NCBI GenBank assembly: GCA_015183035.1
Contig: JACZZP010000001.1
Coordinates: forward strand, 1,426,001-1,490,000
Length of the DNA: 64,000 nt
From: Meloidogyne chitwoodi
Lineage: Eukaryota > Nematoda > Chromadorea > Rhabditida > Meloidogynidae
Direction of reading: 5' to 3'
The notes under the pieces are model-generated. The model had not been told where the DNA came from and did no database searches. It saw only the letters and a list, made by a program, of their open reading frames with translations. Both the position numbers and the translations under genes were made by a program. Below, piece by piece: positions 11,934-59,580 of the stretch; position 1 is the first letter of the stretch, and every line of letters starts with the position of its first letter.

Positions 11934-11974
11934 CTAGCGGAGATGGACGCCCTTCGGGCGTCCTTCTCCGCTAG
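11934..11974. repeat. Strong GC-rich hairpin
   Basis: The 41-bp segment from CTAGCGGAGA to TCTCCGCTAG forms a near-perfect stem of 18 pairs (one mismatch) closed by a TTCG loop. It is an island of GC in surrounding A/T. It could be the foldback end of a transposon, a Helitron-type 3' hairpin ending in CTAG, or a transcribed stem-loop. Confidence 0.6.
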
Positions 11975-12060
11975 CAAAAAACAATAAACTTAAAATAACC
12001 TGAACAATAAATCTTTTACACTTACAAACGTTTTAAAAGAACAAAACACAAAATACTGAG

Positions 12061-12210
12061 ACTCAAATGTTTCTGACTCATGAGTCTCAAACTCAGAATC
12101 AAATGTCTCTCACTCAGAATCAACTGTCTCTTACTCAATTCTCACGTGTCTCTTACTCAAGTTTCTCAGTCATAAGTGTCTTCGATTCAGCTTCAAGTGC
12201 TCATACGCAG
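12061..12210. repeat. Diverged flank of the 15-bp satellite
   Basis: The sequence carries irregular copies of TGTCTCT(C/T/G)ACTCA with 5-15 bp variation. It looks like the older, diverged edge from which the perfect 15-bp array expanded. Confidence 0.6.
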
Positions 12211-13659
12211 ACTCTTGTGTCTCTGACTCTTGTGTCTCTGACTCTTGTGTCTCTGACTCTTGTGTCTCTGACTCTTGTGTCTCTGACTCTTGTGTCTCTG
12301 ACTCTTGTGTCTCTGACTCTTGTGTCTCTGACTCTTGTGTCTCTGACTCTTGTGTCTCTGACTCTTGTGTCTCTGACTCTTGTGTCTCTGACTCTTGTGT
12401 CTCTGACTCTTGTGTCTCTGACTCTTGTGTCTCTGACTCTTGTGTCTCTGACTCTTGTGTCTCTGACTCTTGTGTCTCTGACTCTTGTGTCTCTGACTCT
12501 TGTGTCTCTGACTCTTGTGTCTCTGACTCTTGTGTCTCTGACTCTTGTGTCTCTGACTCTTGTGTCTCTGACTCTTGTGTCTCTGACTCTTGTGTCTCTG
12601 ACTCTTGTGTCTCTGACTCTTGTGTCTCTGACTCTTGTGTCTCTGACTCTTGTGTCTCTGACTCTTGTGTCTCTGACTCTTGTGTCTCTGACTCTTGTGT
12701 CTCTGACTCTTGTGTCTCTGACTCTTGTGTCTCTGACTCTTGTGTCTCTGACTCTTGTGTCTCTGACTCTTGTGTCTCTGACTCTTGTGTCTCTGACTCT
12801 TGTGTCTCTGACTCTTGTGTCTCTGACTCTTGTGTCTCTGACTCTTGTGTCTCTGACTCTTGTGTCTCTGACTCTTGTGTCTCTGACTCTTGTGTCTCTG
12901 ACTCTTGTGTCTCTGACTCTTGTGTCTCTGACTCTTGTGTCTCTGACTCTTGTGTCTCTGACTCTTGTGTCTCTGACTCTTGTGTCTCTGACTCTTGTGT
13001 CTCTGACTCTTGTGTCTCTGACTCTTGTGTCTCTGACTCTTGTGTCTCTGACTCTTGTGTCTCTGACTCTTGTGTCTCTGACTCTTGTGTCTCTGACTCT
13101 TGTGTCTCTGACTCTTGTGTCTCTGACTCTTGTGTCTCTGACTCTTGTGTCTCTGACTCTTGTGTCTCTGACTCTTGTGTCTCTGACTCTTGTGTCTCTG
13201 ACTCTTGTGTCTCTGACTCTTGTGTCTCTGACTCTTGTGTCTCTGACTCTTGTGTCTCTGACTCTTGTGTCTCTGACTCTTGTGTCTCTGACTCTTGTGT
13301 CTCTGACTCTTGTGTCTCTGACTCTTGTGTCTCTGACTCTTGTGTCTCTGACTCTTGTGTCTCTGACTCTTGTGTCTCTGACTCTTGTGTCTCTGACTCT
13401 TGTGTCTCTGACTCTTGTGTCTCTGACTCTTGTGTCTCTGACTCTTGTGTCTCTGACTCTTGTGTCTCTGACTCTTGTGTCTCTGACTCTTGTGTCTCTG
13501 ACTCTTGTGTCTCTGACTCTTGTGTCTCTGACTCTTGTGTCTCTGACTCTTGTGTCTCTGACTCTTGTGTCTCTGACTCTTGTGTCTCTGACTCGGAATC
13601 CTCAGCACGGCTTCTTTTCTTATGGCGTCACTGGAGCAGCAGGGTTCTTCGGCGTCCAT
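12193..13659 (-). CDS. Repetitive basic protein (S-Q-R-H-K)n, putative
   Basis: From an ATG at 13659 an intron-less frame of 488 residues runs through the whole satellite. It has a unique N-terminus (M-D-A-E-E-P-C-C-S-S-D-A-I-R-K), about 92 copies of S-Q-R-H-K, and a short tail L-R-M-S-T. The product would be extremely basic and low-complexity; no signal peptide is apparent. This frame is preferred over the + strand frame (V-S-L-T-L repeats, 12067-13755) because a TATA-containing box (13728-13760) lies about 90 bases upstream of this ATG and the same box precedes the divergent array at 15540. Coding status is inference. The function is unknown. Confidence 0.4.
   Translation of the reverse strand: MDAEEPCCSSDAIRKEAVLRIPSQRHKSQRHKSQRHKSQRHKSQRHKSQRHKSQRHKSQRHKSQRHKSQRHKSQRHKSQRHKSQRHKSQRHKSQRHKSQRHKSQRHKSQRHKSQRHKSQRHKSQRHKSQRHKSQRHKSQRHKSQRHKSQRHKSQRHKSQRHKSQRHKSQRHKSQRHKSQRHKSQRHKSQRHKSQRHKSQRHKSQRHKSQRHKSQRHKSQRHKSQRHKSQRHKSQRHKSQRHKSQRHKSQRHKSQRHKSQRHKSQRHKSQRHKSQRHKSQRHKSQRHKSQRHKSQRHKSQRHKSQRHKSQRHKSQRHKSQRHKSQRHKSQRHKSQRHKSQRHKSQRHKSQRHKSQRHKSQRHKSQRHKSQRHKSQRHKSQRHKSQRHKSQRHKSQRHKSQRHKSQRHKSQRHKSQRHKSQRHKSQRHKSQRHKSQRHKSQRHKSQRHKSQRHKSQRHKSQRHKSQRHKSQRHKSQRHKSQRHKSLRMST
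12211..13590. repeat. Perfect 15-bp minisatellite, 92 copies
   Basis: The unit ACTCTTGTGTCTCTG is repeated 92 times without a single visible substitution across 1,380 bp. The unit is a multiple of three, so the array stays open in reading frames on both strands. Strand composition is asymmetric (pyrimidine-rich on the + strand). Homogeneity implies recent expansion or ongoing homogenisation; assembly collapse or polishing could also hide variants. Confidence 0.97.
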
Positions 13660-13727
13660 ATTGAAGCAAAATGCATTAAGCAGCGTTGTTGTTTGTTTGT
13701 TGTTGAAATGTATTGGCTGGCGTTAAA

Positions 13728-13760
13728 GACTGATCAAAATACAGGGTTTATATAGTATCC
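13728..13760 (-). promoter_or_regulatory. TATA-containing box, copy 1 (faces the satellite ORF)
   Basis: Read on the minus strand this is GGATACTATATAAACC followed by CTGTATTTTGATCAGTC. It is an inverted copy, with about 3-4 differences in 33 positions, of the box at 15506-15537. Each copy points into one of the two tandem-repeat arrays, with a TATATAA core at promoter-like distance from the first ATGs. Confidence 0.5.
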
Positions 13761-13905
13761 AAGTTCAAGTTTATTTTCAAGTTTTAATTTCAAGTTATTT
13801 TCAAGTTTTAAGTTCAAGTTTATTTTCAAGTTTTAATTTCAAGTTTATTTTAAAGTTTTAAATTTAAACTTAAGCCCTATTCAAGTTTATTTTCAAGTTG
13901 CAACT
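13761..13905. repeat. TTTTCAAGTTTTAA-type short tandem repeat
   Basis: Irregular repeats of TTCAAGTTTATTTTCAAGTT and shortened forms occur immediately behind the TATA box. Confidence 0.7.
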
Positions 13906-14579
13906 TTACTATAAAAACTCCCCATTTTCACTTCCCCCAATTACTTGTCTATAAAAACCCGGACAAACATACAAACAAACATTCTCAATTATATAATTAG
14001 ATTTTTAAGAAAAAACCACAAATCAAAATAAAGAAAAAATAATATTTTTTAAAATATAATAATTACACATTTCCTAAAACAAATAATAATGGAACTAAAA
14101 TAAATAATAAAATTACTTTTTTAAAAAACAAAAATTAAATTTATATAAAATATATTTTTATAAAAAGAGTGAAATATCCACCAATATTAATAAATGTGAA
14201 TTTATTTTATTTTTAATATTTATTTATATTAGCTTAAATTATAATTAATTATTTTTTCCGTAGTTCTAATCTGAAAATTTAAAATAGAAATTTTTTAATA
14301 TATCAAAGTATTGAACAGAAAAAATTTAAATTGAAAAGTACAAAAAATTTAAAGATGAAATGATCTGAGATAAAGCTAATAACAAACACTGAAAATTTTA
14401 CAAATTTCTTAACTATAAATATTCTTACAATTAGTATATATAAATATTTAACATACTCTGAATTTCGCAATAGACTTCGCCCAACGACCCTCACGTGGCA
14501 ATAATAAGTAACTTTGTTAGAAATTATCTAGATAAAGATTTAAAATTAAAAATATTATAATTATATATAAAATAACTTT

Positions 14580-15200
14580 GAAACTCGTGAAAACTCGTGT
14601 TTCGATAAAATACGCTTTAACCAGGATCGGGAGGGCTGGAAGTTGAAAATGTTTCTGGAAACTTATGACTGCGCATCCAGGAAAATTATAGACTTTTTGG
14701 TGCGGTGGTTCCTTCCCGCCGAAACAGCCCCCGCTCCGGATCTATTTCGTGAACGGGAGGAGATAGCGGAAAACTTCTGCTTGGAGGGCCCTGAAGAGCG
14801 ATTAGTAGATAATTTTGGAGAAAAATCTCAACTCGAAGGGGTGAAGTGCCTTCCTAACCCTTTTTAAATGCTGGCATTTTGTCCATGCCATGGGGTAGTG
14901 ACGAAAAATTGCAAATGCTATTAAGCGAACGGAGGGAAATACGGGAAAATGTCTGGAAGGGATAATGGGTAAACGAATATGGGGAATTTTTTGGGAATGG
15001 TTATTTTGGTGCCGAGTTTGAGAGTGGCACTGAAATGGCCGATTGAATTTTAACTCGCTTTTTGAGTGAGAACCTAACAAATAAGTCGCGGGTTTTGGGT
15101 GCAGTTGAAGCATGCACAAGTGTAAGCTACAAAAAGTTTGGGAGTCACTTGAGTCTGGGAAGAAGTTTTGGAGAGATATGAGTCAAAAAGTGGTTAAGAA
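14580..15200 (+). other. GC-richer segment with an orphan ORF, origin unknown
   Basis: Composition rises sharply against the AT-rich neighbourhood. A 74-residue frame at 14643-14867 (starts M-K-M-F-L-E-T-Y-D-C-A) contains R-E-R-E-E-I-A-E-N-F. A further frame downstream (about 14920-14960) contains S-E-R-R-E-I-R-E-N-V-W-K-G, so the two look like diverged copies of one motif interrupted by stops. No family was recognised. It is probably a decayed gene or transposon piece. Confidence 0.3.
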
Positions 15201-15505
15201 ATTAAAATTAAAAATTAAAAAATCATTTTGAAAAATTCTAGAAAACTGCAATGACATCATTCATGCTTTTTTTGCGCGAATATTTGTCTTTCACGTATTC
15301 AATTTTTTATATACGCGAAAAAATTTAGTTTATTTAAATAAAAACGACGAAAAATAAGTCGTTCCAAAATATTTTTATAAAGATTAAATAATTTAAAAGT
15401 CAATATCTTATTTTTAATTAAATAATTGATAAGTGGTGGTTTGTTTATATTTTGTAGTATAATAATTTAGTGGAAGAGAAAATTGAGTTTTAGTGTTTTT
15501 AAAAG

Positions 15506-15537
15506 GGATACTATATAAACCGCGTATTTTAACAGTC
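15506..15537 (+). promoter_or_regulatory. TATA-containing box, copy 2 (faces the 83-bp array)
   Basis: The + strand reads GGATACTATATAAACCGC, then GTATTTTAACAGTC, matching the inverted box at 13728-13760. An ATG lies at 15540 and another at 15569. The conservation is limited to this segment, which suggests a functional core promoter or a transposon terminus. Confidence 0.5.
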
Positions 15538-15539
15538 TT

Positions 15540-15734
15540 ATGTCCAGAGCTACGTCAACAAACGTCTATGAGCAGCGCCGCCAACGACTACGAGCAACGC
15601 CGACGACAACGAGCAACTCCAACGGTATTGCTTCTATGAGCAGACGTTCTGGAGCTACGCCAACGGTGGTGGTTCTAGTAACTTATGTTATAGGAGCTAC
15701 GCCAACGGTGGTGGTTCTAGTAACTTTGTTATAG
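15540..15734 (+). CDS. Short ORF entering the 83-bp array, putative
   Basis: The frame starts M-S-R-A-T-S-T-N-V-Y-E-Q-R-R-Q-R and runs into A-T-P-T-V-V-V-L-V repeats before a stop at 15734. In another frame the same array reads S-Y-A-N-G-G-G-S-S-N. Because the repeat units are 42 and 41 bp, the reading frame rotates and no single long ORF results. Coding is doubtful. Confidence 0.2.
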   Translation: MSRATSTNVYEQRRQRLRATPTTTSNSNGIASMSRRSGATPTVVVLVTYVIGATPTVVVLVTLL

Positions 15735-15925
15735 GAGCTACGCCAACGGTGGTGGTTCTAGTAACTTATGTTATAGGAGCTACGCCAACGGTGGTGGTTC
15801 TAGTAACTTTGTTATAGGAGCTACGCCAACGGTGGTGGTTCTAGTAACTTATGTTATAGGAGCTACGCCAACGGTGGTGGTTCTAGTAACTTTGTTATAG
15901 GAGCTACGCCAACGGTGGTGGTTCT
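15650..15925. repeat. Tandem array with alternating 42- and 41-bp units (83-bp higher-order repeat)
   Basis: The unit GGAGCTACGCCAACGGTGGT, continuing GGTTCTAGTAACTTATGTTATA, alternates with a form that lacks one A (AACTTTGTTATA). About 6.5 units are present and nearly identical. The last unit grades into the kinase pseudogene (TTCTATGAGC then GACGTTCTAGGAGC). Confidence 0.92.
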
Positions 15926-15948
15926 ATGAGCTGACGTTCTAGGAGCAA

Positions 15949-17083
15949 TGTTGCTTGGAAAACTGATAGATGATCTCCGGATGCAGCAAAGCGCAGGTTT
16001 TCAGCCGTCACCACTCTTCGGATTTGTATTCAATTTATTTGAGTAAGAAAATTTTAGTAAATAAATGTCAAATAATAATTATTATACTTTAAGGCCTTCT
16101 GCAGTCTCCATAAAGTGGATTCATTCATCGCGATGTGAAACCAGCAAATATCGCTGCAGGCCACAAGCGGCCAGATCTCATCTACCTCTTTGACTTTGGG
16201 TTAGTGCGCTTCATTTACACAGACGAGGACAAATTAATGCTGAGACCGCGTCGCAAGAAGGTGAAAATGAAACATTTCGTCCAAAAATTTCTTTATCTTC
16301 GCTTATTCTTTCAGATCCAGTTCCGTAGGACCTATCGCTACTGTTCGTTGAACGCACAAAGTGCATGGACCAAGGTCGAGTGGATGATCTTTGGAGTGTT
16401 TTGGTGTGTAATACTTATTTTTTAATATAAAAATTTCTTGTAGTATACATTGATTGAATGCCGAAAGCGGAAGTTGCCTTGGACTGGAATCAAACCAAAG
16501 GAATGCCTGGAAAAGAAGGAGACCATTACTAGCACCGAGTTGCTTGAAGTAAATTGTCCTTTTTTTATCACTAACAAATTTTATAATATTAGGATTGTTC
16601 GCCTTCCTTCCCTCGTATCATGGAGAATTTGCGCCCACTTGGATTCGCTGATGAGCCCAAATACAGTTCTCTCATTCAGTGGCTTACTGAAGACTTGCAA
16701 GCGGACCCAGAAACAGCAATAGTTTTGAATGGCAGAGTGCCGGTCAGTCAGTGGCTCGTGTTAAGGATGCAGAGGTAACTGGAAGTGATACGGAGGCAAG
16801 TTTTTCAGAGATGTTTGTGTGACCTCTAAATTAGAATAATTTGCAGGTAAAATCCGAAACTGCACAGACAGATGTCAGTCTCTTCACTACATTGGCTGTT
16901 TCAGACGAAGAAGATGGGAGCACCGTTGAATACGATGACACCATTGAGAACATGCCACCTGACAAAAAAATTATGAACATAGATGAGATCAAAGAAAAGC
17001 AGCAGAAGGGAGCGGCAGAGAAGGAGATGACGGCCAAACCTCCAGAAGATATCAAGAAACCTTCAGAAGATGCAAAGAAATAA
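15949..17083 (+). pseudogene. Broken CK1/tau-tubulin-kinase-like protein kinase gene
   Basis: Nematodes carry many CK1/TTBK-like kinases. Pieces in order are L-L-G-K-L-I-D-D-L-R-M-Q-Q, R-F-S-A-V-T-T-L-R-I, G-F-I-H-R-D-V-K-P-A-N-I-A (catalytic loop HRDVKPAN), L-F-D-F-G-L-V-R (DFG), R-Y-C-S-L-N-A, G-R-V-D-D-L-W-S-V-L, Y-T-L-I-E-C-R-K-R-K-L-P-W and an acidic/lysine tail ending at 17083. These are not in one frame. Shifts are needed between M-Q-Q and R-F-S, just before G-F-I-H-R-D, and after S-L-N-A; the N-lobe with its ATP loop is missing. Intron-like gaps remain near 16041, 16262, 16404 and 16548. The GC content and codon use differ from neighbouring genes. A misassembled or diverged living gene cannot be excluded. 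Confidence 0.7.
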
Positions 17084-17410
17084 TATAAAGATTATTGCTA
17101 TCAGTGTTCTCCTGACCGGGTTTCGGTCATGATCAAAAGTGACATGACCTTGACTGTTCTGACCGGGTTCTGGTCAGGTAATTTTGATGACCGAAAAAAG
17201 GCCAGTCAGAATACTGAGTGCTATCACATTTCCTTTTTGTATTGTTTCGTAACTATTTATTTGTATTATAATTGTAGTAAAATGTAATTTGTATTGAAAA
17301 AGTGAATAGAGTTTCGATGATTTGGTTGATCCCGTTTTGAAGGCAGTGAGAGATGACGACAAAACTCCAGAAGATGCCAAGAAATAATATAAAGATTATT
17401 ACTATCAGTT
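17060..17410. repeat. Duplicated kinase 3' end with a palindromic GACCGGGTT insert
   Basis: The end of the kinase frame, CAGAAGATGC(A/C)AAGAAATAATATAAAGATTATT, occurs at about 17062-17098 and again at about 17365-17402. Between them, 17110-17215 contains several copies of TGACCGGGTT and its complement (CTGACCGGGTTTCGGTCATGA, then CTGACCGGGTTCTGGTCAGG), able to fold back. This looks like a small insertion that duplicated its flank, or an unequal-exchange product. Confidence 0.55.
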
Positions 17411-17461
17411 GTCGGTTTCTGGAGAACCTTATATCCAGTGTTTGAATTTTCGATTTTGTTC

Positions 17462-17575
17462 ATACTCATACTTCATATCATCAAAAAAAGTTGCTCATAC
17501 ATCATACCGTCTATTTTTTCCCTCATACATCATGCTCTATTTGTACATTTTTAGGCTTCATACATCATACACATA
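17462..17575. repeat. TCATACATCATA short repeats
   Basis: At least five imperfect copies of CTCATACATCATAC, spaced 20-35 bp, occur after the kinase remnant. Confidence 0.6.
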
Positions 17576-18066
17576 AATTTAATAGGAAAAAAAATTAAAT
17601 ATTTGTCTCCAAAAAATTAAAATTAATTAATTAAAATAATTAATATTTTGTTTAGCGAGAAAATGCTTTCTGATCTTTACACTCAAATATTTTTTAAATA
17701 TATTTAAAATATTTATATACATATTTCTTTAACTACCATAAATAATTTTAAAAAAATTTTTTATTTATTAAATAATTTTAATTTTTAAAAAATTTAAATT
17801 TATAGAAAATTTTGTAGTTTTTAATTACTCTATGACAAATGTAAAGAGTTATTATTATTATTTATTTATTTATACACTACTACTTAAGTACAGCTGTTGT
17901 AATTATATTTTTATTTATTTATTACCAAAGGAAAGACTGGCTGTATTTAATTTTTATATTATTATAGTAGTAGTAGTGAGTGGTGAATTTAACAATCGAT
18001 TGATTTTTAAGTAAAAATAAATAAGATTAAAATATATTTTATTTTTTAAATATTAATATTTAAAAA
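17576..18066. other. AT-rich intergenic DNA upstream of the CCDC50-like gene
   Basis: No gene was recognised. There is a (TAG)n-like stretch near 17964-17975 and short TTATTA runs. It presumably includes the CCDC50-like promoter. Confidence 0.35.
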
Positions 18067-21800: not shown

Positions 21801-24800
21801 AATAAAAAAAAACTCTTTAAAATAAATATAAAAAATGCGCGACTAATACATATATTGACGTATTAACACAACAAATAAATAAATAAATAAATATTAATTT
21901 AAAAAGAAGGAAAGAATGTTTGCGTTAAATAAATATTTTTAGAGAGAAAGCTTTAAATAAATAAATTATTTTTAATTATAATTTAAAATAATTAACTCTA
22001 TAGACAATATTTATTTATTTATTTATAATAATTAATATTATTTAATTTTTATTTAAATTAATTTTTAATTTTAAAAAAGCACGATGATGAATAAAAATTA
22101 AAAAAAAAATTAATATTATTATTTTTACTTACCGCCTTGCAATTGCTTTTTTTTTTCTCTTCTAATGAATTATAATAATGCCCTCCTATAATACCTTCAT
22201 TAATTATTTTAGACATTTCACTATTATTATTATTAAATTGTATTTGTCCAGGTCCAAATGAAGCAGAAAAATATTGTTGATAATTATTATTATTATTATT
22301 TAATTCAATATTTAAATTATTTTCTAAATTAATTATATTCTGCTGTTTTTGTTGTTGAATTATCATTTGTTGTGTAGAAGAAGATGGAATTGTTTTATTA
22401 TTATTTGGTGATAACGAAGAATTAATTGATGATAATGATGAAACTAAAATTAAATTAAAATAATAAATAAATTAATTAATAAATAAAATAAAATAAATGC
22501 GCACATTGATTATTATATTATTGCTACTATTAAATCAAGTTCTTTTTTTCTTTTACTAATTATATGTACAAAAATATTTACTTGATAATATATAATAAAT
22601 TTTAATAAACTTTAAATTTTTTAAAATTAAATTAACTTTTAACAAAACAGGTTTTTATTTTTGAAAAAAAGAGATATAATTAAATTAAAAATATATATTA
22701 CCTGAATTACTACTATTTTGTTGTTTTATTTCAGTTATTTTATTTTTATTAAAATTAGGGAATGTTATAAATTCTGAAGATGTAATTTGTTGTTTCTAAT
22801 TAAATTAAATAATTATTTTTATATTAAAAAATAAACAAACAATCAAATTATTATTATTATTAACAACACCAATTAAATTTAAATGTTCTTCAGAAATTGA
22901 AGTTGGAATAAAAGATGATAAATTATTTTTATTATTATCTTCTAAGTTTTTTATTGTAATTAATTGAAATGAATTACGTCTAGGAATTATTTTTTGCTTA
23001 AAATTATTATTTTAATTTTAATTTAAAAAAAAACTTGAAGAGATGATTGTGGAATATTTTGAGAAGAAGAATTAATAAGAGGAGATAATAATAATAATTG
23101 TTTTTTATTTTCATTTAAATCTAAATTAATAAATTAATTAATTTTAATAAATAAATAACCATTTTCTTTATTATTATTATTTTCAATTATTTTATCATTA
23201 TAATAATCCCATACTTGCCAACGACCTTTTTTATAATAATTATTATTTACTGGAATTATCTAAATATTAATTAATTAATTAATTTATTTATTTTAAAATA
23301 ATATTACCTTAAATCTAGATAAATTATTAGACATAAATAATTTATTATTATTAATAATTATTTGTTCTTCTTCTTGTTCTACTTCACTTTCTACAATTAC
23401 ATTAACAACAGTTGGAAAACATTTACAAATTTTAAATGCTAAAAAAAGACTTAAAATAAATAAATATAATTTATTTATTTTATGTTTAATTTAAAAAAAA
23501 AAAAGAAAAACAATTTTTATTATCAAATTAAAAATTACGAAACGAGAAAATAATAAATTATTTATTTAAAAGAAATAAAATAGATTATATAAATAAATAA
23601 ATATAATCAATTAATTAATTAATTAATTAATTAATCAATTAATTAATTAATTAAATAATCTATATTAAATTAAAAAATAAACTAACATTTTTTTCTTTTT
23701 TTTGGTAAATCTTCATTAAATAATTTATTTTGTTGTTCTTTTAATTGTTTTTGATTATTTATTTCGTTATTATTTTGTTCCAATATTAAATTATTATTAT
23801 TTAAAAATATTTGACTATAAAAATAATTTAATATTTATTTTTTTAAAAGTAAATAAATAATTTTTAAAATAAATTTTAAAGAAAATAAAAAATTTAAAAT
23901 ATTTTTTAAAGAGGTAAAAATAAATAAATATATTTAAAGTAAATATATTTATTTATTTTACTTAAATATATTTTTTAAAATAGAAATTAAATTAAAATAT
24001 TAAATAATTTGTAATAGAGATGAAAATTGTTTTTTAGTCTTATAAAGAATTTTTATTTATTTTTGAGGCATAAAAAATAAAAAAGATTGGACAAATCACG
24101 AGTAAAAATGAACAAAAAAGTTTAAATTCCAACATGACAAAAATTGGTTAAAATAAATAATTTTTATTTAAAATATAATTTTTTTTAAATATTTTAAATT
24201 AATTAATAAACTTACTTATTTATTTTATTTTCATTTAATTCTTTATTATTTTGTTCATTATTATTTATGAAAAATAATTTATTTTTATCAATTGTATTTT
24301 TAATTGTAATTAATTCATTTTTATTTTCAGATATTTCTGAGATTAACCATTGGACAGGTATTTTGCAAATACCTAAACCCATTTGTTGATGAAGAAGAGA
24401 AGTAGCAGCAAAATTAGATTTAAATAAAATTAATTTATTTAAATAAAATTAATTTATTTAATTAATTTAATTTATTTAATTAATTAATTTAATTTAATTA
24501 ATTTAATTAATTAATTTAATTAATTTAATTAATTTAATTAATTTAATTAATTTAATTAATTAATTAATTAATTTAATTAATTTAATTAATTAATTTAATT
24601 AATTAATTTAATTAATTTAATTAATTAATTTATTTATTTATTAATTTATTAATTTATTTAATTAATTTAATTTATTTAATTAATTAATTTAATTTATTTA
24701 ATTAATTAATTTATTTAATTAATTTATTTAATTAATTTAATTAATTAATTAATTTATTTATTTATTTATTAATTTATTAATTTATTTAATTAATTTAATT

Positions 24801-26829
24801 AATTAATTAATTTAATTAATTTATTTAATTTATTTAATTAATTTAATTAATTTAATTAATTTAATTAATTAATTAATTTATTTATTTATTAATTTATTAA
24901 TTAATTAATTTATTTAATTAATTTAATTTATTTAATTAATTAATTAATTTAATTAATTAATTTATTAATTTATTAATTTATTTAATTAATTTAATTTATT
25001 TAATTAATTAATTTAATTTATTTAATTAATTAATTAATTTAATTAATTTATTTAATTAATTTAATTAATTTAATTAATTTATTTAATTTATTTAATTAAT
25101 TTAATTAATTTAATTAATTTAATTAATTAATTTATTTATTTATTTATTAATTTATTAATTAATTAATTTATTTAATTAATTTAATTTATTTAATTAATTA
25201 ATTAATTTAATTAATTAATTTATTAATTTATTAATTTATTTAATTAATTTAATTTATTTAATTAATTAATTAATTTAATTAATTTATTTAATTTATTTAA
25301 TTAATTTAATTAATTTAATTAATTTAATTAATTAATTAATTTATTTATTTATTAATTTATTAATTAATTAATTTATTTAATTAATTTAATTTATTTAATT
25401 TATTTAATTAATTTAATTAATTAATTTATTAATTTATTAATTTATTTAATTAATTTAATTTATTTAATTAATTAATTTAATTTATTTAATTAATTAATTA
25501 ATTTAATTAATTTATTTAATTAATTTAATTAATTTAATTAATTTAATTAATTTAATTAATTTAATTAATTTAATTAATTAATTAATTAATTTATTTATTA
25601 ATTTATTAATTTATTAATTTATTTAATTAATTTAATTTATTTAATTAATTAATTTAATTTATTTAATTAATTAATTAATTTAATTAATTTAATTAATTAA
25701 TTAATTAATTTATTAATTTATTTAATTAATTTAATTTATTTAATTAATTAATTTAATTTATTTAATTAATTAATTAATTTAATTAATTTATTTAATTAAT
25801 TTAATTAATTTAATTAATTTAATTAATTAATTTATTTATTTATTTATTAATTTATTAATTAATTAATTTATTTAATTAATTTAATTTATTTAATTAATTA
25901 ATTAATTAATTTAATTAATTAATTTATTAATTTATTAATTTATTTAATTAATTTAATTTATTTAATTAATTAATTTAATTTATTTAATTAATTAATTAAT
26001 TTAATTAATTTATTTAATTAATTTAATTAATTTAATTAATTTAATTAATTTAATTAATTTAATTAATTAATTAATTAATTAATTTATTTATTAATTTATT
26101 AATTTATTTAATTAATTTAATTTATTTAATTAATTAATTTAATTTATTTAATTAATTAATTAATTTAATTAATTTATTTAATTAATTTAATTAATTAATT
26201 AATTTATTTATTTATTTATTAATTTATTAATTTATTTAATTAATTTAATTTATTTAATTAATTAATTTAATTTATTTAATTAATTAATTTATTAATTTAT
26301 TTAATTAATTTAATTTATTTAATTAATTAATTTAATTAATTTATTTAATTAATTTAATTTATTTAATTAATTAATTTAATTTAATTTATTTAATTAATTA
26401 ATTTAATTTATTTAATTAATTAATTTAATTTATTTAATTAATTAATTAATTAATTTAATTTATTTAATTAATTAATTTAATTAATTTAATTAATTTAATT
26501 AATTTAATTAATTAATTTATTTATTTATTAATTTATTAATTTATTAATTTATTAATTTATTTAATTAATTTAATTTATTTAATTAATTAATTTAATTTAT
26601 TTAATTAATTAATTTAATTTATTTAATTAATTAATTTAATTTATTTAATTAATTAATTTAATTAATTTAATTAATTTAATTAATTTAATTAATTTAATTA
26701 ATTTATTTAATTAATTTAATTTATTTAATTAATTAATTTAATTTATTTAATTAATTAATTAATTTAATTAATTTATTTAATTAATTTAATTAATTTAATT
26801 AATTTAATTAATTTAATTAATTAATTAAT

Positions 26830-26876
<47 letters not shown>

Positions 26877-27413
26877 TTAATTTATTAATTTATTAATTTA
26901 TTAATTTATTTAATTAATTTAATTTATTTAATTAATTAATACAATTTATTTAATTAATTAATTTAATTAATTTAATTAATTAATTTATTAATTAATTTAA
27001 TTAATTTAATTTATTTAATTAGTTAATTAATTTAATTAATTTATTTAATTAATTTAATTTATTTAATTAATTAATTTAATTAAAATTACTTGGTATTTTA
27101 TATTTATTATTTATTTCTTCTTCTTCTTTTTTATTTTCTTTTTTTATTTTTTCTTCTTTTATTTTATTTTTATTTTTAATACATTTACATGATGGAATTA
27201 ATAATCTTTTGGCTATTTGTGATATTTTTTGTTTTAATGGAGAATTTTGACATTTTTTAATTTTTTGAGAAGATATTTCATTTTCTTTTTTAAATGAACT
27301 AATTTAAATATATTTAATAAAATATATTAAAATAATTAAATTATAATATATTTAATTTAAAAAATAAATAAATACCTAATATTTATTCCAATTTGTGATG
27401 AAGTTGAACACAT
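18887..27413 (-). CDS. TSC22-domain family transcription regulator, long and short isoforms
   Basis: The 3' exons 19954/19965-19872, 19794-19711 and 19036-18887 encode the TSC box: K-I-E-Q-A-M, D-L-V-K-T-H-L-I-Y-A-V-R-D-E-I-E-L-L, then a leucine zipper. Far upstream, in-phase exons 27413-27376, 27298-27090, 24372-24216, 23814-23687, 23438-23308, 23259-23160, 23120-23035, 22996-22841, 22795-22702 and 22443-22133 encode a low-complexity N/Q/K-rich region. It carries N-L-S-R-F-K joined to Y-Y-K-K-G-R-W-Q-V-W-D-Y-Y, which fits the SRF(R/K)V and KKGRW blocks of long TSC22D proteins. TSC22 proteins dimerise and act in TGF-beta-related and osmotic-stress regulation. The link between 22133 (phase 0) and the TSC-box exons was not found, so a connecting exon is missing from this model. 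Nearby first exons provide short isoforms. Confidence 0.8.
19078..19699. mobile_element. Degenerate mariner-like element in a TSC22 intron
   Basis: The 622-bp element starts CAGAGTAACTCAAAAGTCTT and its right end, reverse-complemented, reads CAGGGTGACCCAAAAATCTT; the two align at about three quarters of 27 positions. It is flanked by TA on both sides (19076-19077, 19700-19701), the Tc1/mariner target-site duplication. No transposase frame survives. It begins only 11 bases from the intron donor, so the exon junction narrowly escaped disruption. Confidence 0.75.
20008..20085. repeat. (TTAA)n then (TTTA)n microsatellite
   Basis: An uninterrupted run of TTAA tetramers, followed by TTTA tetramers, lies in a TSC22 intron. 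Confidence 0.9.
20149..20365 (-). CDS. Candidate first exon, short TSC22 isoform A
   Basis: The exon starts M-I-I-T-N-N-N-Y-L-S-P-I and ends with one base of a codon at a GTTAAATT donor. It fits in frame to the acceptor before 19954 (T-S-T-G-A-V-P-S). Serine-rich and basic (L-I-R-R-R-H-S-S-V). The reading phase supports use as an alternative promoter exon, but the donor is weak. Confidence 0.45.
20864..21057 (-). CDS. Candidate first exon, short TSC22 isoform B
   Basis: The exon starts M-L-K-S-L-C-S-S-S-P-S-T-A and contains several cysteines (I-I-C-C-S-S-S-Q-L-N-C-C-W). It ends with two bases of a codon at a GTAAAATT donor, in frame with the acceptor before 19965 (G-S-S-A-S-T-G). Short TSC22D1/TSC22D3 isoforms in vertebrates also start from separate first exons just upstream of the TSC box. 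Confidence 0.45.
21215..21233. repeat. (CT)n microsatellite
   Basis: About nine CT dinucleotides in an otherwise A/T-only intron of the TSC22 gene. Confidence 0.9.
24421..27082. repeat. 2.66-kb TTAATTTA-type A/T repeat in a TSC22 intron
   Basis: The block consists almost entirely of TTAA, TTTA and TTAATTTA blocks in shuffled higher-order order (recurring segments such as TTTATTTAATTAATTTAATT). Only a few non-A/T bases occur (near 26941 and 27021). No CT dinucleotide occurs on the + strand, so on the transcribed strand there is no AG and hence no false 3' splice site across the block. The exon boundaries at 27090 and 24372 remain intact around it. Confidence 0.95.
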
Positions 27414-58185: not shown

Positions 58186-59580
58186 GGGAGCGAGTCATTT
58201 TAACGACGCCGTTTTAACGATAGGATTTTACCGACAGATTTTCACCGACAGCCGTTTTAACGATGCCGTTTTACCGACGACCGTCTTATCGACGCCATTT
58301 GACCGACCGAAGAAAAAGTTCCATTTTACCGACAGAATTTTAAATTTATTCAAAATTTTTACTCCAACAGGATAAAATAAAAAAAACAAGAATGGACATC
58401 AAAAAATTTTATTTTCAATCTTTTTTCAACATTAAGCAAATTAAATAATTTAAATAAATTTATTAAATAAATTCTTTTTAAAAGTTTAACAAAATAAATA
58501 AAATTCCAATGACAAGGGGTTAACCCTACATTCATTGGAAGAGTAACCGGAAAGAGAAACATTAAAATGAATCAAAATTAATCCATATGATAGTTCCTTG
58601 AAATACCACGCAAAAATTGGATAAATGTATGCTGATTGAAAGCCTGATTAATATCAAAAAAGTTGGGATCATTATTTATGGGGACATATTGGTTCACCAA
58701 GGCAAGAATTCGAGCATCAGCTTCTCGGTATTTCTTTGCTTTCATTGGTGGTCGACTTCCTTGGACAAATTTCGCAAAATCAGCATCCACAATCTTCTGT
58801 CGCTTGCGTAAGACATCGATAAATCTAAATATCACTTATCATAAAGCTATAGGGAAAGTTTAAGTATACCGCCAAATGTTAGGATGGTCACAGGAAAATG
58901 CATTCTGTAATGCTCGATGTGCTGATTCGGCTCTGTTGTTCGTCCTGTCGTAACCCATAATTGTTCTATCATACATGTTCCATGCCTCAGGACTGAAAAG
59001 AGGCCGAGTTCGCGTTCCATTCATAAGTGGCCGACCAGTGTAATTGGTTAGAAACCTTTGTTAAAAACTATTTAAATATCTAATTCAATCTCACCAGTCC
59101 ATTAGTGGTTGAATTTGAACCGGTAAAGGTAAGTTTCATTTTGCATGTTAGTCCACACTCGACCTTTACAACATATGCCGTTTTCATCTCCTGAAGAACT
59201 ACAACGCCAAAACATTGCTGTGCCATCTTTTTTCATTTTATCTTCTACATAAAGAAAACCTTCATGCTCCACTGTTGCATTTCCACGAATAGTTTCAATA
59301 TCCTGTGCCATTTAAATTTAAATAAATCCTAAAAATAAATCAAATATATAATATAAATAAAAAATAATTGAAAAAAGAAATTAAAACAATTTTTTAAATT
59401 CGAAAAGATAAAATTATAAATTTAAAATTCTGTCGGTAAAATGGAACTTTTTCTTCGGTCGGTCAAATGGCGTCGATAAGACGGCCGTCGGTAAAACGGC
59501 ATCGTTAAAACGGCTGTCGGTGAAAATCTGTCGGTAAAATCCTATCGTTAAAACGGCGTCGTTAAAATGACACCCCCCCC
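58186..59580. mobile_element. Deleted Mutator-like element (MULE) with long terminal inverted repeats
   Basis: The 1,395-bp element has terminal inverted repeats of about 160 bp (58186-58349 and 59416-59580) that match almost perfectly beyond a G-rich tip. They consist of many GTCGGTAAAA / GTCGTTAAAA units (CCGACAGCCGTTTTAACGAT and relatives). The 7-mer AACCGCA lies directly outside both ends (58179-58185, 59581-59587), consistent with most of a MULE-type 8-10 bp target duplication. Long TIRs plus a FLYWCH-containing ORF inside fit nematode MULEs. Confidence 0.88.
58578..59311 (-). pseudogene. MULE transposase remnant (FLYWCH N-terminus fused to C-terminal end)
   Basis: On the minus strand, 59311-59107 encodes M-A-Q-D-I-E-T-I-R-G and a FLYWCH-type zinc finger (F-L-Y-V-E-D-K, F-W-R-C-S-S-S, C-C-K-G-R-V-W-T). 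After a stop and a small intron-like gap, 59056-58871 encodes F-L-T-N-Y-T-G-R-P-L, then N-R-A-E-S-A-H-R-A-L-Q and D-H-P-N-I-W-R. 58824-58578 encodes F-I-D-V-L-R-K-R-Q and the tail, ending N-Y-H-M-D. The last parts are typical of the C-terminus of nematode MULE transposases. The DDE core between them is deleted. The element could only move with a transposase supplied elsewhere. Confidence 0.75.

Follow-up and report, generated by a model that had tools for sequence, protein, structure and literature searches.

The region analyzed here, called the window throughout, is a stretch of 64,000 nucleotides (C1:1426001-1490000) from the crop-parasitic nematode Meloidogyne chitwoodi. It contains two adjacent tandem-repeat loci which share a short box with a TATA motif in inverted orientation: the left locus is a complete non-autonomous Helitron carrying a 15-bp minisatellite, and the right locus is a longer composite repeat carrying an 83-bp array. 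Genome searches covered 47,477,280 bases in 30 contigs of M. chitwoodi. Contigs are numbered C1, C3 and so on, L-numbers denote individual genome stretches that were examined, and A|T is the notation for an insertion junction. The tandem arrays of the window were located with Tandem Repeats Finder, and the features of the left and the right locus are as follows.

11934..14001, minus strand: complete non-autonomous Helitron of family A, 2,068 bp, with both ends located (5' end at 14001, 3' end at 11934).
13891..14001, minus strand: conserved leader at the 5' end, TCTAATTATATAATTGAGAATG..., which includes a box-like GTTTTTATAGTA in inverted orientation; a similar leader is present on the C3 Rep-helicase copy.
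13761..13861, minus strand: internal array of the TTGAAAATAAAC type between leader and box (Tandem Repeats Finder); the C3 Rep-helicase copy has a similar stretch.
13726..13760, minus strand: left box, with TACTATATAAACC at 13745-13757, lying 98 nt ahead of the ATG and putatively the core promoter of Rep-helicase (alignment and masked-box scan of family A).
12193..13659, minus strand: open reading frame (ORF) MDAEEPCCSSDAIRKEAVLRIP(SQRHK)n, a leftover Rep-helicase N-terminus plus minisatellite (compare MDADEPCCSNEI...SSDARRKRKSRAEE in the Rep-helicase frames).
12210..13594, minus strand: 15-bp minisatellite, 92.3 copies with 100% matches (Tandem Repeats Finder); related arrays of other lengths occur in other family A copies.
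11934..11974, minus strand: 3' terminal hairpin ending in CTAG and followed by T (arm pattern in the genome).
14562..17594, plus strand: composite repeat of about 3 kb with leader, box, array and kinase-like exons (genome matches).
15399..15508, plus strand: diverged Helitron leader, family B.
15506..15539, plus strand: right box, with TACTATATAAACC at 15509-15521 (alignment and genome matches).
15651..15926, plus strand: 83-bp array composed of two halves of 41/42 bp (Tandem Repeats Finder).
16117..16260, plus strand: piece of a kinase-like exon (HRDVKPAN ... FDFGLVRF), on the downstream side of the right array (Pfam Pkinase, below the cut-off).

A local alignment of both sides gives 31 identities between the two boxes across 35 columns, the remainder being 3 mismatches and 1 gap. 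The alignment score of 25 clearly exceeds the maximum of 15 obtained among 300 shuffled pairs. The copies are inverted relative to each other (13726-13760 on the minus strand, 15506-15539 on the plus strand), and CTATATAAACC occurs twice in the window, solely at both boxes, where 0.01 occurrences are expected. A preliminary description of this DNA had reported a shared inverted TATA box with one copy pointing into the 15-bp array and the other into the 83-bp array. The alignment confirms the former statement and the Tandem Repeats Finder coordinates the latter. The genome search for further copies which it had proposed revealed many of them: TACTATATAAACC is present at 93 exact places and at 462 places with at most one mismatch, compared with 206 for the reversed control. 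Longer queries also found relatives, as the 151 bases around the right box gave 34 genome matches (self counted) and the 191 bases around the left box gave at least 42, with 40 of 79 candidates scored.

Fifty of the 93 exact TACTATATAAACC places were then classified, with the threshold set by the highest match among 1,000 random stretches of the window that exclude the locus. At 46 of these 50 loci, the upstream leader or the downstream start matched a reference copy above the random-stretch maximum (45 by upstream and 43 by downstream sequence). When the 8 reference loci were excluded, 38 of the remaining 42 still shared leader or downstream sequence. This extended homology points to descent, and it argues against convergence, in which the box would be a host promoter element of its own that many unrelated genes and repeats came to use separately. 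In favor of such convergence, four loci (L051, L056, L059 and L060) carry the exact box without a Helitron leader, and a similar box precedes a further inner ORF in L067, L071 and L039; on balance, a convergent origin appears very unlikely. Separately, L049, L050 and L052 represent a further box-bearing repeat (family D), with upstream and downstream stretches that are mutually similar and a different sequence behind the box.

The longer copies contain a Rep-helicase gene behind the box. The Helitron_like_N domain (PF14214) has 23 matches in the genome, of which 21 score at least 97 bits and two are weak pieces of one locus with stops. Six of the matches, each near 192 bits, form one group and fall in five open frames, and the Rep-helicase frames at C3, C28 and C7 start with MDADEPCC. 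The C3 copy spans C3:1611792-1617316, as calculated from its located ends, with the 5' junction A|TCTAATTATATAATTGAGAA and a 3' terminal hairpin followed by the junction CTAG|T. Its box, TACTATAAAAACC, is a one-letter variant, and the ATG follows at a distance of 92 nt from its first T. This ATG opens a frame of 1,605 amino acids that begins with MDADEPCC and includes Helitron Rep and helicase domains; for the part of this copy in L093, Pfam reports Helitron_like_N (E value 8e-55) and the start of PIF1 (E value 8e-7). Given its domains and matching ends, the C3 element is a potentially autonomous partner of the shorter copies. At C7, the exact box is followed by a Rep domain in a broken frame. 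Neither of the C28 copies in L103 and L104 retains the far leader, and a DUF1759 gag-like frame lies upstream in L103. The stretch C28:1112209-1113924 is a Rep-helicase copy in which the far leader has been replaced, and one frame of 1,996 amino acids among the Rep-helicase copies has two Rep domain matches.

The left locus has the same kinds of ends, with the junction A|TC at the 5' end and a hairpin ending in CTAG|T at the 3' end. Dispersed family A copies display sharp ends of matching kinds within unrelated flanks. Their 5' start is TCTAATTATATAA or a near variant, and a host A precedes 40 of 41 distinct ends; this tally was reduced from 43 rows by dropping L034 (a non-leader match) and L003 (the window copy repeated). 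At the 3' side, a host T comes after CTAG in 12 of 13 ends, and also after the ends of L019 and L041, which fall outside the CTAG pattern tally. The hairpin arm together with the following T was found at 37 exact places and at 130 with up to two mismatches, counts to which both palindrome arms may contribute; the reversed control gave 0. In 10 distinct elements, the number of bases common to both flanks was 0, 0, 0, 0, 0, 2, 2, 3, 3 and 4; these chance-like repeats are AT-rich and of no single length. Since 5 of the 10 elements have none, there is no regular target-site duplication. Combined, the ends and the insertion site show the left locus to be one complete derivative of a Helitron lineage.

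The satellite ORF of the window (12193-13659) encodes 488 amino acids, beginning with MDAEEPCCSSDAIRKEAVLRIP (MDAEEPCCSSD) and continuing into SQRHK repeats. From this comparison of N-termini, the ORF is the leftover start of the Rep-helicase gene run into the minisatellite. In a sample of 22 family A copies that lack a nearby Rep match, 10 continue in the SQRHK or SQRRL frame. Of the other 12, 6 have no ATG at that site (the first ATG leads to 13 codons), 4 are interrupted within the first 50 codons, and in 2 a different frame of the array is open, giving ESETL. The arrays are 99-100% uniform in 18 of the 22 copies, 82% and 86% in two, and the examined part of the other two has no array. Their length ranges from 6 units to more than 100, with two arrays extending past the examined stretch, and the units differ between copies. 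This variation in length and unit is minisatellite turnover inside a transposon. Because the unit length of 15 bp is divisible by three, an array that is open remains open without selection. In L046, an overlapping frame of 25 codons ending in a stop resembles a signal peptide by eye.

These results bear directly on the suggestion that the loci are hypervariable repeat effector genes, with coding arrays and a common gland promoter in which the box is a STATAWAARS-type motif. STATAWAARS marks gland effectors in Bursaphelenchus xylophilus (PMC6062891), and the resemblance is close: CTATATAAAC and CTATAAAAAC match all ten letters, many box copies head arrays, and the long SQRHK/SQRRL frame is kept in 10 of 22 copies. 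However, 46 of the 50 examined sites here lie in transposon-like sequence, and the motif was later described as non-predictive of effectors in root-knot nematodes (PMC8158474). The effector interpretation was set aside on two grounds: what follows the left box in the longer copies is a Rep-helicase gene, and the array frame is not maintained in 12 of 22 copies. We consider it very unlikely. Since the boxes resemble Helitron promoter regions, the arrays are most likely cargo of mobile elements and not a new kind of effector gene. Of the earlier interpretation, the promoter-like TATA box common to differing, fast-changing repeats holds, as does its alternative of a mobile element, while the hypervariable effector is not supported. 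Scans for effector-promoter motifs such as STATAWAARS can catch transposon promoters, which calls for caution in their use.

The relationship between the two loci extends beyond the box. The left leader is similar to family C leaders with z scores of 29 and 12.5, and the right leader matches one family C leader with a z score of 10.8, compared with 0.2 for the leader of L070. Compared directly, the left and right leaders show weak similarity (z 5.1; score 38 vs a shuffled maximum of 34), so their probable homology is accepted only via the intermediates. The two sides had initially been described as unrelated outside the box, which does not hold for the upstream leaders. The left copy also carries an extra array between leader and box. 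The unit of the right array recurs in a complete element on C5 (L070, L106): L070 combines a C-type leader (z 18 to L069), a 41-bp array, an imperfect hairpin and CTAG|T, and its tail resembles family C by eye. Parts of the right composite, including the kinase-like stretch, are present at nine other places (C3, C4, C7, C23, C25 and C30) with 84-94% identity. The exon piece matches Pkinase with an E value of 2e-5 and 24.5 bits, below the cut-off of 31.7. The composite is possibly a multiplied gene capture, and capture of gene pieces past a failed 3' end would explain it. The right locus is a diverged leader and array absorbed into a longer composite repeat with kinase-like exons.

An inverted pair of boxes also resembles terminal inverted repeats, and the preliminary description had considered them as the termini of one mobile element (13728-15537). 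For a query of 2,541 bases, 84 matches were listed (40 of 509 candidates scored); except for the window's own, they cover left or right blocks, and none spans 13728-15537. The actual element ends were located elsewhere than at the boxes, which lie inside two repeats pointing apart. Clean transposon copies do exist elsewhere in the genome, and their ends differ from the boxes. On the matches listed and these located ends, a single element bounded by the boxes was rejected as very unlikely. The feature is real and non-random and has an ordinary cause: two back-to-back Helitron-derived repeats, each with a putative promoter in its 5' leader. As these loci are adjacent and point outward, they give the appearance of an inverted pair.

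We are highly confident that the box is the TATA core promoter of a Helitron-lineage 5' leader, and that derivatives keep this leader and the 3' hairpin with the gene body replaced by minisatellites. As judged from sequence comparison, the box is most likely the core promoter of the Rep-helicase gene, carried along by derivatives with a replaced interior. The ends, the insertion site, the leader in common, the Rep-helicase partner and the leftover N-terminus are seen directly in the sequences. In the proposed mechanism, the box would act as promoter, the gene body between leader and hairpin would have been lost with minisatellites in its place, and the Rep-helicase may mobilize the derivatives in trans.

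The dispersed copies allow promoter upkeep to be compared between gene-bearing and gene-less lineages. In these scans, the 13 box bases were masked and the flanks were allowed up to two mismatches. Family A gave 57 places, of which 33 have TATAAAAA, 21 have TATATAAA and 3 others deviate. The TATA consensus is TATAWAAR, and the two major forms, which account for 54 of the 57 places, differ solely at its W. Without the W column, deviations in family A amount to 3/684 in the box vs 31/1,254 in the flanks (p 0.0008). In family C, in which no Rep-helicase gene was seen, the box is exact at 22 of 31 places, and with the W column included, since it departs from the family A pattern, the deviations are 10/403 in the box vs 22/682 in the flanks (p 0.58). 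The family C box is thus no better kept than its flanks, so upkeep of the promoter in gene-less copies is not supported. Both tests are only indicative: the copies share ancestry, no more than two mismatches were tolerated in the flanks, and the scan misses any place whose anchor has changed, as in L023. With this reservation, the counts would fit a promoter which is important in gene-bearing lineages and decays in gene-less ones. A bolder and rather doubtful extension is that the leader is a travelling RNA polymerase II promoter which fires in many gene-less copies and transcribes unrelated minisatellites and captured kinase-like exons, with the TATA box selected only in the lineage still holding Rep-helicase genes.

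Several observations weigh against the Helitron explanation, in addition to the four leaderless box loci and the family C counts. In L023 the ORF is kept and the box region is altered. The 5' end of L078, preceded by C, is the sole exception to the host A, and L048 has an altered 3' end followed by A. The termini of the right composite could not be located from its genome matches. A genome search with the joined flanks of L020, representing the empty site, gave no match crossing the junction, with 40 of 202 candidates scored. Finally, in families A and C no bases separate the hairpin from the 3' end, while the canonical Helitron hairpin is situated about 11 nt inside the 3' end (PMC4067079); the spaced form is found in L067, L070 and L106. 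The right flank of L020 is itself part of another high-copy repeat (e.g., C10:1528994-1529193), often present as inverted copies a few hundred bases apart.

In comparison with known systems, the present lineage shares with Helitron1, as canonically defined in PMC4067079 and PMC5148889, the 5' TC, the 3' CTAG, insertion between A and T, a 3' hairpin and a Rep-helicase with PF14214 and PIF1; it differs by the flush hairpin of families A and C and by the long minisatellite interior. The non-autonomous, Helentron-associated rolling-circle elements HINE, DINE-1 and oyster Cg_HINE likewise carry central satellite-like arrays (PMC7492417, PMC4067079). Unlike the present element with its A|T site and 5' TC, these elements are described in these sources with T-rich/TT sites and subterminal inverted repeats. 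Helitrons of Caenorhabditis elegans include satellite families (PMC4595182) and carry regulatory sequence upstream of the Rep-helicase gene, in their case heat-shock elements, which are also found upstream of other genes (PMC6927752); here, the corresponding sequence is a putative TATA core promoter. No description of the present family was found among the titles and abstracts listed on Meloidogyne Helitrons or M. chitwoodi transposable elements. A transposon survey includes M. chitwoodi (PMC11118728), and the two mentions of Helitrons in its text concern Aphelenchoides. What appeared as a puzzling promoter of effector-like satellites now becomes a defined Helitron lineage in a crop-parasitic nematode, with a likely autonomous partner and satellite-carrying derivatives.

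Some family A stretches contain a further ORF with its own TACTATATAAACCCAGTATTTTG box (L067 from 1501; L071; L039), which could be another gene of the same transposon, driven by a similar promoter. For its spliced product of 212 amino acids, there was no Pfam match at E 1 or below, no match to a solved structure at E 1 or below and no relative at E 0.001. By eye, the product recalls a single-strand-DNA-binding fold, which we do not claim. A head-to-tail pair is present in L072 (C6:305179-306191), where a Helitron-like 3' end with hairpin and CCGCTAG directly adjoins the beginning of the family A element that follows.

Elsewhere in the window, an inverted repeat at 58186-59579 has the appearance of a complete terminal-inverted-repeat transposon, its 164-nt arms being 98% complementary and separated by 1,066 nt. 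Positions 24428-27083 hold a 2.6-kb array of the AATT type, with about 204 copies of the 13-bp unit TTAATTAATTTAT.

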